Source: Chamaesiphon sp. 336R_metabinner_41
GTDB taxonomy: Bacteria; Cyanobacteriota; Cyanobacteriia; Cyanobacteriales; Chamaesiphonaceae
Direction of reading: 5' to 3'
Assembly: GCA_025359915.1 (NCBI GenBank)
Contig: JANYDE010000070.1
Location: 1 to 60,884 of the forward strand
DNA length: 60,884 bases
The notes below the pieces were generated by a model. That model saw only the letters and a list, made by a program, of their open reading frames with translations. It made no database searches and was not told the origin of the DNA. A program made the position numbers and the translations under genes. The first letter of the stretch is position 1. Each line of letters starts with the position of its first letter. Positions 6,301-60,884 of this stretch are shown here, in pieces.

Positions 6301-6384
6301 CTAGTACTGAGCGGCGTAAGTTAAGCCACCATTTCCCCTTTCCCCTTTCCCCTTTCCCCTCCTCCCTCCCCCCTCCCCCCTCTC
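6301..6384. repeat. Dispersed repeat end plus C/T-rich tandem repeat
   Basis: 6301-6332 (beginning CTAGTACTGAGCGGCGTAA) is identical, in the opposite orientation, to 14201-14232, where it forms one end of a small foldback element. Here only one end is present. It is followed at 6333-6384 by tandem CCCTTTC heptamers grading into poly-C/T, just 13 bases before the terC-type gene. Seen directly; the element's mobility is inference. Confidence 0.75.
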
Positions 6385-20573: not shown

Positions 20574-23500
20574 ATGACCCCCGACGATCTAGATTTTCAA
20601 GAGTCACTCGATCGATATTTTGAGATCGAAGCGGCGGAATTATTACAAACAATCGAAGAAACACTAGTCAGTCTAGTGGAAGAAAAAACGATCGAGCGTG
20701 TCCATACCCTGATGCGAGCAGCACATACCATCAAAGGTAGTGCGGCTAATTGTGGCTTCAAAACGATCGAGACAATCGCCCATCATCTGGAAGATGTTTT
20801 CCAGGCTCTCTACCCTGCCGAATTGGAAATCGACCCCGAACTGGGTTTATTGCTAATGGAAGGCTACGATTGCCTGTATGACCCCCTGAGTGCATTATTA
20901 GCCGGCGTTCCCTATGATGAAGCGGCTACTCTCGAACGGACAGCGACACTATTCGCCAGACTGCAAACTCATTTAGGCGATTTCTTCGGACGGGAAACTC
21001 CATTACCAACCGCCGCCGAATTAGGCTTTGATGTAATTGGGTCAATTTTTACAGATAGTATCCCCCACGATCTCGAAGATTTAGCCACAGCTATTGCTAG
21101 TCAAAATGTTGCTAAAATTCAAGAAAGTCTCCGTTCGCTGGCAGAATTTTTGTTGGAGCTGGGTGGATCTTATAGTCTCCCAGGGATTGCAGCAATTGCC
21201 AACACTACATTATCGGCTCTCGAACGTCATTCAGCTAGAGTGCTAGAACTCGCACCCATTGCTTTAGCTAATTTTCAACAAGCTCAAATTGCGATCGTTG
21301 GTGGCGATCGATCTGTTGGTGGTGAGGTATCATCAGAACTAGATGCCTGGACTGAATTTTCTGGAGATTTATCATCATCAAAATCTATTAATGAAGATAA
21401 TTCTGCTGATTGGTTATCATTAGCTGAATTTACTAGTATCGGAGATTCTCTCACCAAGTGTGAGCTTGGCTCAATCGCTACAGATACAGCACAATTAACT
21501 GATACGTCTGATTCAACAGCATGGTTGTCATTAGTTGATGCTGATGCTATTCCTCCTCAAGCAGAAGTAACCACTGCTAATGATCTAGATTCAACAGCAT
21601 GGTTGTCATTAGTTGATGCTGATGCTATTCCTCCTCAAGCAGAAGTAACCACTGCTAATGATTTAGATTCAGCAGACTGGTTGTCATTAGTTGATGCTGA
21701 TACTATTCCTCCTCAAGCAGAAGTAATCAATCTTGACCTCTCAACCTCCAACCCCAAAGAAACAGTCGATCTTGACTTTGATATTATTGAAGTTAGCTCC
21801 TTCTTGGATGCAGAAACAATTGATATTAAGATCGAATCGATATCAAATCAAACCGAATATTTGATTGAAGCGATAGAATCTCATTCCGGCTCAAACCTAG
21901 AAATAGTTGCTCAATCTGGAATCGATCGAATTTTTCAATCGATTTCACTGGGGAATCCAGAATTATTGTCGCCAGAAGAGCCGCCGCAATCAGCATCAAA
22001 AACATCTTCAACCGCCGATCGAGAAATCCAGCCAGATCCACTCGTTAGCGTTCGCGTTGCCACGATCCAACTCGAACGACTCAGCCACACCATCGGCGAA
22101 CTGCTGATCGATGACGATCGTCAATATTTGCACACCGAACGATTACATAAACTATCTCAATCTATCGTCGAACAATATCGTCGATGTGAACAAAAATTAC
22201 GCTTAGTTAGTGATTGGGCTGACAAAAATAATTTAGCAGGCGAACGCACAAAGTTCTCCTCACGCCGATTTGTTAATAATACCAAAGATAGAAGTAATAA
22301 ACTCAAAAAAGTTACCAATAATGAAACACCATCGCATTTCGATAGCCTCGAAATGGATGTATATAGTGACTTGAGTATTCTGATCCAAAACCTCACTGAG
22401 GATCTTGCCGAACTAGGGATTGGGGTTAGCAATTTGGCAGAGATGACTCAAAGATCGCGAATCACGTTGAGTAAGCGCAAACAATTACTCGCAGAGGCGC
22501 AATCAGAATTATTTGAAGCCAGAATGGTCGAGATTTCTAGCGTTCTCAATCGCTTCCCGCGCTTACTCCAACAGATGGTTGCTTCCCATCGCAAACCCGC
22601 ACAATTGCAACTGATTGGTAGTGAAATTTCAATCGATAAAATTATCGCCGAAAAACTCTACGATCCCTTATTGCACCTGATTAGAAATGCTTACGATCAC
22701 GGTGTCGAAACACCCGAACTTCGCGCTGCCCAAGGTAAATCAGAAACCGGACAACTAACGATTAAAGCTTATCACCAAGGAAATCGCACCAAAATCGAAG
22801 TTAGCGATGATGGACAGGGCTTAAATTGGGTTAAAATTCGGCAACGAGCGATCGATCTCAATCTTCTCACCATCAACCAGGCGGCTAGCGAAGCGGAGTT
22901 AGCCGAAATCATGTTTGCGCCAGGATTCTCCACCGCTGACAAAGTAAACGACCTTTCCGGTCGAGGCATCGGTTTAGATGTCGTCCGCGACCGTCTGAGT
23001 GCCTTACAGGGAACGATCGACGTTCGCTCCGTCCTCGGCAAAGGCACCACCTTTGTGATGCAATTCCCCCTCAATCTCACTACCACTCGACTATTGATTT
23101 GCGAATCCCAAGACTGCGTGTACGCCTTGCGTTCGGAAGCCATCAGTCAGGTATTATTACCATCCCCAGATCGGATTCAATCCCAATCTCTATTCGCAGA
23201 TCGCGGTACATCCAAATTCTTGCGCTGGGGTGACGGTGCGGCTCAGAAATTGATCCCAATTTATCCTGTCAATGGACTACTAGACTATCATTGTTCGATC
23301 GTTCCGAACGAAACAGTGGTGAATCTGTTTCCAACTAAAGCCAAGAACAGCTCCAATGCCCTACTTCTACTAGAAATCGACGACGAACAAATCTGTCTCG
23401 AAGTTAGCCGGATTCTCGTCGAACAAGAATTAGTTGTCAAATCTCTCGGTCAAACCTTTGGATTGCCTAACTATATTCAAGGTTATAGTGTTTTGGGCGA

Positions 23501-58325: not shown

Positions 58326-59870
58326 ATGAAGAAGGATGACTCATTTTTATTGCAAGTTATGTTGAATGAAGCGATGACTCTTCCAGCATTAATTCAGAAA
58401 ATGTTAACACCGGAATTTTATCCCCATCCGGTGACACTTCCGATCCAACTGATGCAAACTCATGCATCCTATGTTTTGTTGACTGGTGAATTTGCTTACA
58501 AACTCAAGAAACCAGTCAACTTTGGATTTTTGGACTATTCGACAGTAGAAAAAAGACAGCATTTTTGCAAAGAAGAACTTCGTCTCAATCAACGCGGGGC
58601 TAAGGAATTATATCTAGAAGTCTTGCCCATCGCCCAACAAGGTAATAAATATTATTTGGGTAGCGATGGCGAGATTGTAGACTATGCTGTCAAAATGGTG
58701 CAATTTCCCCAGGAAACATTACTCAGTAATATGTTCGCAGCAGGAACGATTACTACTGAAAATATTGAAGAAATGGGCAGAGTTGTCGCCAAATTTCATG
58801 CCCATGCTCAAACCAATCGATATATTGCTAGCTTTGGGACGATCGATCGCATCAAACAATCGATCGATGATAACTATCGCCAGACTGAACCATATATCGG
58901 ACGCGCTCAAACTCAACAGCAATTTACCGAAACCAAAGCATATACCGATCGATTTTTAGAAGAACATCCGCAATTATTTTGCGATCGAATTCTTGGTAGA
59001 TTTATTCGTGAATGTCACGGCGATTTACACCTGCGAAATATCTGTCGCTGGCGGGACAAAATTTTCCTGTTTGATTGCATCGAATTTAACGAACCATTTC
59101 GCTATGTCGATACGATGTACGATGTTGCTTTTGCTGTCATGGATTTGGAAGCCAGAGAACGCAAGGATCTTGCCAATCGGTTCTTAAATACTTATGCCGA
59201 GCAGACAGGGGATTGGGCGGGATTGCAGGTATTGCCCATGTATCTGAGCCGTCAAGCCTATGTCCGTGCAAAAGTCACCTCATTTTTGCTCGACGATCCT
59301 GCCATCTCTAACGCGGATCGCGCCGCCGCAGCCCAGACAGCCACAGATTATTACCACCAAGCTTGGGAATATACGCGCCCTCGCCAGGGGCGACTAATTA
59401 TGCTGGCGGGGCTATCTGGATCTGGCAAAAGTACCTTGGGCAAAAAAATCGCCCAAGAATTAGGTGGCGTACATCTGCGCTCTGATGCAGTCCGCAAACA
59501 TTTGGGGGGGATTCCACTTTTAGCCAAGGGCGATGACAGTCTATATACTCCCGAAATGACCGCTCAAACCTATCGATGTGTATTGGAATTGGGGTCAAAA
59601 TTGGCTGTACAGGGTTTTACAGTAATTTTGGATGCAAAGTACGATCGGCAGTCATTACGCGCCGCTGTTATCGATTTAGCTCGATCTCAAAGTATTCCGC
59701 TCCAGATTTTCTACTGTACGGCACCAGAAGATGTATTGCTCGATCGATTGGCACATCGCACGGGGGATATTGCCGATGCCACCGTAAATCTACTCGCCAG
59801 TCAACAGGCGGCTTGGGAAGATTTTACCAGCACAGAACGAGCTTATGTGACCACGATCTATACCACATAG
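58326..59870 (+). CDS. Bifunctional APH-like kinase / P-loop ATPase (COG2187-COG0645 type)
   Basis: A 514-residue protein. The N-terminal half resembles aminoglycoside-phosphotransferase-fold kinases (YVLLTGEFAYKLKKPVNFGFLD with the Lys; HGDLHLRN near 238; FDCIEFNEPFRYVD). The C-terminal half (about 355-510) is a small nucleoside-kinase-like P-loop domain (LAGLSGSGKSTLGKKIA). The substrate is unknown. The last eight or so codons match a duplicated copy of this gene's 3' end at 60618-60642. A frame from that copy would end SNSDFSR at a stop at 60668-60670, which may be the ancestral C-terminus. Confidence 0.85.
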   Translation: MKKDDSFLLQVMLNEAMTLPALIQKMLTPEFYPHPVTLPIQLMQTHASYVLLTGEFAYKLKKPVNFGFLDYSTVEKRQHFCKEELRLNQRGAKELYLEVLPIAQQGNKYYLGSDGEIVDYAVKMVQFPQETLLSNMFAAGTITTENIEEMGRVVAKFHAHAQTNRYIASFGTIDRIKQSIDDNYRQTEPYIGRAQTQQQFTETKAYTDRFLEEHPQLFCDRILGRFIRECHGDLHLRNICRWRDKIFLFDCIEFNEPFRYVDTMYDVAFAVMDLEARERKDLANRFLNTYAEQTGDWAGLQVLPMYLSRQAYVRAKVTSFLLDDPAISNADRAAAAQTATDYYHQAWEYTRPRQGRLIMLAGLSGSGKSTLGKKIAQELGGVHLRSDAVRKHLGGIPLLAKGDDSLYTPEMTAQTYRCVLELGSKLAVQGFTVILDAKYDRQSLRAAVIDLARSQSIPLQIFYCTAPEDVLLDRLAHRTGDIADATVNLLASQQAAWEDFTSTERAYVTTIYTT

Positions 59871-60115
59871 ATAGGGTAATTAAAGACTTTTGTAAAAAAG
59901 TAGAGCAAGCAGAATGGGAAAATCTCATAGATGTACAGCAGGACTACCGAGATGCGGAATCAGTCGGAAATTTTACGGTGATCAATATCAAAGGTAATAA
60001 GTACCGAATGATTCTGAGTATTGAATATCAAGAACAAATTGCATACTTTAAATATTTTTTGAGCCATGCTGACTACGATAAAGACGATTGGAAAAACGAC
60101 CCTTACTTTCGATGA
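59813..60115 (+). CDS. HigB-family toxin, apparently N-terminally truncated
   Basis: A RelE-superfamily mRNA interferase of the HigB type: VEQAEWENLIDVQQDYRDAE, VGNFTVINIKGNKYRMI, IAYFKYFLSHADYDKDDW. Residues from about 59870 onward align with the family; the first 18-20 residues of normal HigB (including the start) do not appear. The only standard in-frame start nearby is TTG at 59813, inside the kinase gene, which would give an unrelated N-terminus. Family homology begins within a few bases of the end of a 25-base direct repeat (59866). It overlaps the antitoxin gene by 50 bases, a typical HigBA order. Possibly inactive. Confidence 0.7.
   Translation: MGRFYQHRTSLCDHDLYHIDRVIKDFCKKVEQAEWENLIDVQQDYRDAESVGNFTVINIKGNKYRMILSIEYQEQIAYFKYFLSHADYDKDDWKNDPYFR
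59842..59866 (+). repeat. 25-bp direct repeat, copy 1 (kinase 3' end)
   Basis: Begins CTTATGTGACCACGATC. Copy 2 is at 60618-60642 with one mismatch (24/25). The two copies flank the toxin-antitoxin module and a MITE. Confidence 0.9.
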
Positions 60116-60515
60116 AGACAAGTATATCGATCTATTCAAAGAGCTAAAAATAGCTCCCAAAGTAATCGAGACAGAAGCAGAGAACGAAAAATGTTTGGCA
60201 ATTGTCGAAGCATTGATGTTCAAAGGACAGAATCGCACGATCGAAGAAACAGCCCTACTTAAAGTGCTTGTCATCCTAATTGAAGAATTTGAAGAAAAAT
60301 ATTATTCATTCAAAGAGTGGCAAAAAACCACGCCACATGAATTCTTGCAGCATTTGATGGCGGGAAAAGGGATGAAGCAATCAGACTTAATTGGCGTGTT
60401 AAGCATGTCTAGTGGATTGATATCATCGATCGTCAATGGCAAGCGACAAATTAGCAAGGAGCAAGCAAAAAAACTGGGTGCATACTTTAATGTATCACCT
60501 AGTCTATTTATCTAA
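60066..60515 (+). CDS. HigA-family antitoxin with XRE-type HTH
   Basis: A 149-residue protein. The N-terminal part (about 1-95) is charged and helical (FKELKIAPKVIETEAENEK). The C-terminal 55 residues form an XRE helix-turn-helix (KGMKQSDLIGVLSMSSGLISSIVNGKRQISKEQAKKLGAYF). Such antitoxins bind HigB and repress their own operon. It overlaps the toxin gene by 50 bases. The frame is intact, so it may persist as a solitary regulator if the toxin is broken. Confidence 0.88.
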   Translation: MLTTIKTIGKTTLTFDEDKYIDLFKELKIAPKVIETEAENEKCLAIVEALMFKGQNRTIEETALLKVLVILIEEFEEKYYSFKEWQKTTPHEFLQHLMAGKGMKQSDLIGVLSMSSGLISSIVNGKRQISKEQAKKLGAYFNVSPSLFI

Positions 60516-60521
60516 GTCGCC

Positions 60522-60617
60522 ATCTGTAGGTTGGGTTGAACGGATGTGAAACCCAACATCTACACAAGCACTTGATGGAAGTGTTGGGTTTCGCTCTGCT
60601 CTACCCAACCTACAGAT
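60522..60617. mobile_element. MITE-like element (TGTAGGTTGGGT type)
   Basis: 15-bp perfect inverted ends, ATCTGTAGGTTGGGT (60522-60536) and ACCCAACCTACAGAT (60603-60617), with internal GAAACCCAACA and TGTTGGGTTTC. I recognise this as a very common short element in cyanobacterial genomes. It directly abuts the second copy of the 25-bp repeat. Confidence 0.8.
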
Positions 60618-60642
60618 CTTATGTGACCACGATCGATACCAC
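60618..60642 (+). repeat. 25-bp direct repeat, copy 2 (displaced kinase 3' end)
   Basis: Same sequence as 59842-59866 with a single T-to-G difference. In the kinase frame it continues to a TGA at 60668-60670, encoding a longer C-terminus than copy 1. Confidence 0.9.
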
Positions 60643-60838
60643 TAAGTCTAACTCGGACTTTTCTAGATGAACGCTTAGAAACACTGGTGAGATTGCTAGA
60701 GATCGATATATTCGTTTGAAATCTAAGCAAGTAGCTGCTTTCCTATCAGGGTAAGCGCATCTCAGAAAGTATCGTAGGACACAGATTTCTGAGAAGGAAG
60801 ACAGGAGAGAATAGCTGAATATATTCAGGTGTGCGCCA

Positions 60839-60884
60839 ATGTCTAAAGATCTTGCTTCTAGTCAGTCTACTATTGATTCCTCAG
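60839..60884 (+). CDS. Possible gene start, cut by window end
   Basis: An ATG at 60839 opens a frame (MSKDLASSQSTIDSS) that runs off the window. No strong ribosome-binding site. The preceding 200 bases (from about 60660) include a small inverted repeat TCTCAGAAA/TTTCTGAGA and no other gene. It could be the start of an insertion-sequence transposase, but 15 residues are too few to judge. Confidence 0.3.
   Translation, partial: MSKDLASSQSTIDSS

Follow-up and report, generated by a model that had tools for sequence, protein, structure and literature searches.

Organization of the Locus

The window, which is the whole 60.9-kb stretch of DNA analysed, corresponds to contig C129 of a 4.23-Mb Chamaesiphon assembly. 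Close to its right end, a gene for a bifunctional kinase is followed by a remnant of a HigB toxin gene, an intact gene for a HigA-type antitoxin, a REPIN and a second copy of the kinase 3′ end (Table 1). The two copies, 59842-59866 and 60618-60642, share the sequence CTTATGTGACCACGATC[T/G]ATACCAC with a spacing of 776 and enclose an insert of 751 bp. A 25-base repeat with one mismatch had been described at these two places in the earlier note, and this is borne out; 24 of the 25 bases are identical, and 25-mer pairs with at most one mismatch occur in none of 30 windows simulated with a first-order Markov model. In the whole window, the only other such pairs are those within a tandem repeat and a pair of C/T tracts. 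The tandem repeat (21509-21705) consists of 78-bp units and apparently lies inside a coding sequence; the C/T-rich low-complexity tract (CCCCTTTCCCCTTT...) is found twice, at 6332 and 12212.

Table 1. Features of the kinase-HigBA-REPIN locus, in window coordinates.
Feature	Position	Strand	Basis
Bifunctional APH-like/AAA_33 kinase gene	58326..59870	+	Pfam AAA_33 (E 5e-26), APH; homologue tails
Copy 1 of kinase 3′ end	59842..59866	+	GAT to TAT, Asp to Tyr
Remnant of HigB toxin gene (from codon 19/20 through the stop)	59867..60115	+	PF09907 match beginning at model position 5; comparison with nine intact HigB of the genus; promoter scan
HigA-type antitoxin gene, intact, 149 aa	60066..60515	+	As long as in relatives; homology ends on the right at the stop codon
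CTAAGTC, possible micro-homology joint	60512..60518	+	Recurs at 60642-60648, where copy 2 ends
REPIN, head-head pair of GTAG-tagged REPs	60522..60617	.	Shared unit 60526-60613; 85 strict REPs, hairpin, dimers elsewhere
Copy 2 of kinase 3′ end, ancestral version	60618..60642	+	Homologue tails, same-genus DNA
Orphaned original tail of the kinase (KSNSDFSR*)	60643..60669	+	In-frame reading after copy 2

The Kinase Gene and Its Original End

At present, the kinase ends as ...YVTTIYTT* at copy 1, and its stop codon TAG (59868-59870) comes from the insert. Read through copy 2, the kinase frame gives ...YVTTIDTTKSNSDFSR, which is 8 residues longer and has IDTTK where copy 1 has IYTT. At the changed codon, 24 of 29 kinase homologues carry Asp, three Asn and one Glu, while the column is missing in the remaining one and Tyr is found in none. 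The corresponding base, T in copy 1, is G in copy 2 and in all six same-genus DNAs that were aligned. Past DTT, most of the homologues carry on with a tail of variable length, and copy 2 does likewise (DTTKSNSDFSR*). Both the Asp residue in the homologues and their continuation past DTT show that copy 2 is the old kinase end in displaced form, and that copy 1 is the derived one. The earlier note had supposed just such a displacement of the original gene end and a longer C-terminus encoded downstream, and the comparison of homologous C-termini with both tails that it had called for speaks for copy 2. An empty site, which it had also suggested looking for in relatives, is found as well; the kinase gene is uninterrupted in seven same-genus genomes, and the HigBA homologues sit at separate places there. 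The loss of the eight variable tail residues was probably tolerated, leaving the kinase unharmed, because tail length varies greatly and two of the homologues stop about where copy 1 does.

The HigB Remnant and the Solitary HigA

The HigB domain is clearly recognized by profile PF09907 (E 2e-25, model positions 5-73, 89.1 bits against a cut-off of 27). Intact Chamaesiphon HigB starts with MHLISARRVKQAAAKYPDVDR (nine intact proteins, MHLI...YPD), and the homology of the window HigB begins at 59868, that is, at codon 19/20 and directly after copy 1. The suspicion voiced in the earlier note that the toxin is cut off at its 5′ end by the junction is thereby confirmed to the codon; no such layout is seen in the relatives, in which intact HigB is complete at its N-terminus. 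With type II HigBA systems (PF09907; PDB 5IFG, 5YCL, 6KML), the window module has in common the toxin-first order, an overlapping HigA with a C-terminal HTH and a clear domain match, but it has lost the upstream region, the start codon and the first 19 toxin codons, all 19 of which are retained with the start codon in each of the nine intact genus relatives. The HigB frame contains no ATG, GTG or TTG from the edge of the insert up to the conserved domain, and a promoter scan detected no promoter-like site just upstream of the remnant. Furthermore, the three solved HigB structures align from residue 1 of intact HigB (query residues 1-89), and the missing N-terminal segment would be needed for the fold. 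HigB is thus most probably dead and not made, and the pair as encoded in the sequence would not be functional. What had been designated a HigBA-type pair is therefore one in its HigB and HTH domains, which are real, but not a working toxin-antitoxin pair, HigB being without a start.

HigA is 95% identical to its counterpart in a sister genome, G002. It is matched by the HTH_3 profile (E 3e-5) and by TIGR02607, the latter with 23.8 bits and thus below its cut-off of 47.7. The antitoxin now appears to be solitary, and it would be expressed only via read-through or from an internal start. Solitary antitoxins whose toxins are lost or degraded are well known and have been discussed for type II systems. 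The window HigA resembles such orphan antitoxins in that the antitoxin is kept and the toxin lost; it differs in that the cause of the loss is visible here as a truncation at an insertion junction. In the same genome (G000), HigB is encoded at seven additional loci that are free of internal stops, so that other HigB toxins are in principle available to the solitary HigA.

The REPIN

A MITE ending exactly at 60617 had been noted at the right edge of the insert. A palindrome does end there (96 nt, -31 kcal/mol as single-stranded DNA, z -8.9), but it is better called a REPIN, and the unit shared by the repeat family, GTAG...CTAC, ends at 60613; the flanking ATCT/AGAT is absent from most other copies. 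The palindrome comprises two inverted REPs with their tags outside, at 60526-60557 (+) and 60583-60613 (-). In the genome, strict REP matches, which occur as dimers and singlets, number 85, against 0 for a reversed-pattern control. GTAG REPs have been described in cyanobacteria (PMC3733652), and the head-head pair of GTAG palindromes here matches the REPINs (PMC3116915). Common to both descriptions and the window are GTAG outside the palindrome, a head-head inverted pair of about 90 bp, many copies and a predicted hairpin.

When the flanks of 30 other REPIN loci were searched for direct repeats with a threshold score of 16, which leaves very short duplications out of reach, none of the 30 had one, whereas the window locus scores 21. 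Since no other locus shows it, the 25-bp repeat is not the usual target-site duplication of the REPIN, and the REPIN was rejected as the source of the duplication. Nor does the element agree with a classical MITE, which has a target-site duplication at each copy, as these 30 copies have none of score 16 or more. The window REPIN differs from these copies in that its outer edge is shared with a larger insert, on both sides of which the target is duplicated.

Relatives and Source of the HigBA Module

The closest module is an intact one beside PNPase in G002, with 93% DNA identity over 59865-60514. HigBA is 92-96% identical to that of G002 at the DNA level, versus 81% for the kinase, and dS to G002 is 0.18 for HigB, 0.41 for HigA, 0.85 for the kinase and 0.39 for PNPase. 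Because dS of PNPase is also low, the similarity of HigBA, as far as these substitution rates tell, could be explained by a slow-diverging locus and not just by transfer between species. A second 5′-truncated HigB with an intact HigA is found on a second contig of the same bin, at the PNPase-linked site (L142, G002:C347), where it is cut at another codon and where only weak direct repeats surround it. No relatives of the module were found in a phage collection, and a phage origin was rejected for this reason; its plasmid relatives are ordinary HigBA.

At its right edge, the window runs into a multicopy insertion sequence, of which it contains the left end (60747-60884, terminal CAGGGTAAGCGCATCTCA); the same 141 bp form the end of four other contigs. 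Contig C134 carries the other end of this insertion sequence, next to PNPase; this PNPase, at the contig end, is 91% identical to that of G002. A move of HigBA away from a site next to PNPase within its own genome was considered and set aside, as neither the flank of the insertion sequence in the window nor the flanks in the four other contigs match the one in C134, and no linkage could be shown. In addition, 29 bases at 60711-60739 agree to about 90% with the 3′ terminus of an ORF on the minus strand beside HigBA in G002. By eye, this ORF is likely Uma2/DUF820, and the 29 bases are possibly what is left of a gene broken by the insertion sequence.

Possible Origins of the Layout

The layout is probably the product of a one-off capture, in which a 751-bp fragment was taken up at a staggered break or by template switch. 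The fragment (59867-60617) would have extended from HigB codon 19/20 through the intact HigA to the REPIN and would have entered the last kinase codons. Either a staggered break with an overhang of about 25 nt would have been filled in around the fragment, or a copying strand would have re-entered 25 nt upstream of its exit point. Both would leave a 25-bp target flanking the insert, with the same footprints, and a transposase or integrase of the fragment's own would have no part in the capture. Break capture and template switch, and the single event itself, are what we infer from this arrangement; the 25-bp duplication is assigned to one event because the other REPIN loci have no flanking repeats. 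Joint entry of HigBA and the REPIN is less certain. In G002, a decayed REPIN lies about 110 bp after HigA, compared with 11 bp in the window, and its sequence is no closer to the window REPIN than unlinked copies are; no closely related strain bearing an intermediate was found.

The main rival, clearly less likely, places two steps in succession. First, a 31-bp duplication (CTTATG...CACTAAGTC) of the kinase end would have arisen around a REPIN, and a HigBA fragment would later have entered the left copy by a clean insertion between CAC and TAAGTC, joined via the shared CTA. The heptamer CTAAGTC hints at such a course and against a single event; it stands right after the HigA homology (60512-60518) and again where copy 2 ends and its following sequence begins (60642-60648), as if the left copy resumed past the insert. 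Random pairs of places share at least 7 bases in about 2% of trials, yet a coincidence of this size that was noticed after the fact is weak. Moreover, the first step is itself unexplained, the other REPINs being without flanking duplications.

Capture driven by the REPIN is improbable. A REP-processing tyrosine transposase (RAYT) would have made its cut at the REPIN and carried the adjacent HigBA along with it. The edge of the insert is indeed the REPIN, the genome combines its strict REPs with two RAYT-like genes, and a REP is also present downstream of HigBA in G002. However, the two RAYT-like ORFs score 78.8 and 39.8 bits, under the curated cut-off of 80, and no matching REP core is found in the surrounding DNA examined. 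The other REPINs show no duplication, and the left edge of the insert, in HigB codon 19, is unlike any REP end. A slightly lower probability still is given to the general form of this idea, that a REP-processing transposase picks up a REPIN with neighbouring genes and inserts the whole, duplicating a long (25-31 bp) target. If it were true, toxin-antitoxin modules could spread by such a transposase without a transposon of their own.

It is very unlikely that the locus is an artefact of a chimeric contig. The assembly is fragmented (169 contigs, 3.4% contamination), but overlaps at contig ends measure 141 bp, far more than the 25-bp repeat, the REPIN does not repeat exactly over a long stretch, and both junctions lie inside one 60-kb contig and off its 141-bp end. 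Hardly any weight falls on an integrated mobile element that is bounded by att-like direct repeats and aimed at the gene 3′ end; the direct repeats do lie at a gene 3′ end and reading is kept to a stop codon, but the 751 bp contain no integrase or transposase ORF and hence no encoded recombinase of the kind that marks an integrative element or a transposon, the left edge falls within a toxin codon, the insert shortens the kinase tail instead of restoring it, and nine same-genus genomes showed no further copy of the unit, nor were circular copies seen. Equally slight is the chance of a working module with an unusual toxin start, such as a rare codon or a frameshift from the kinase, since the open and nearly unchanged HigB frame (dN 0.01 versus G002) would also result from a recent break, no slippery sequence was seen at the junction, and both a usual start codon near the domain and the 19 codons of all nine intact relatives are missing.

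Parallels and Meaning

The nearest published layout that was found is that of Microcystis aeruginosa PCC 7806, in which a toxin-antitoxin module lies between direct repeats next to an orthocaspase gene (PMC7935541). In both cases, a cyanobacterial toxin-antitoxin module is situated downstream of a host gene and between two direct repeats. However, the Microcystis module is intact and of the ParE/RelE type, and its 152-bp repeats lie outside genes, whereas in the window the repeat consists of 25 bp from within the host gene, and the toxin gene is a broken one.

The locus is no new system but a well-resolved scar, left by a genome accident of an ordinary kind, and it leaves known mechanisms unchanged. 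Its value lies in being a clean and polarised case, in which a toxin-antitoxin module enters the end of a gene, the toxin is broken exactly at the junction and a solitary antitoxin is left. Together with the remnant in the sister genome, it provides two differently truncated HigB genes with intact HigA, which fits the view that loss of the toxin precedes that of the antitoxin.
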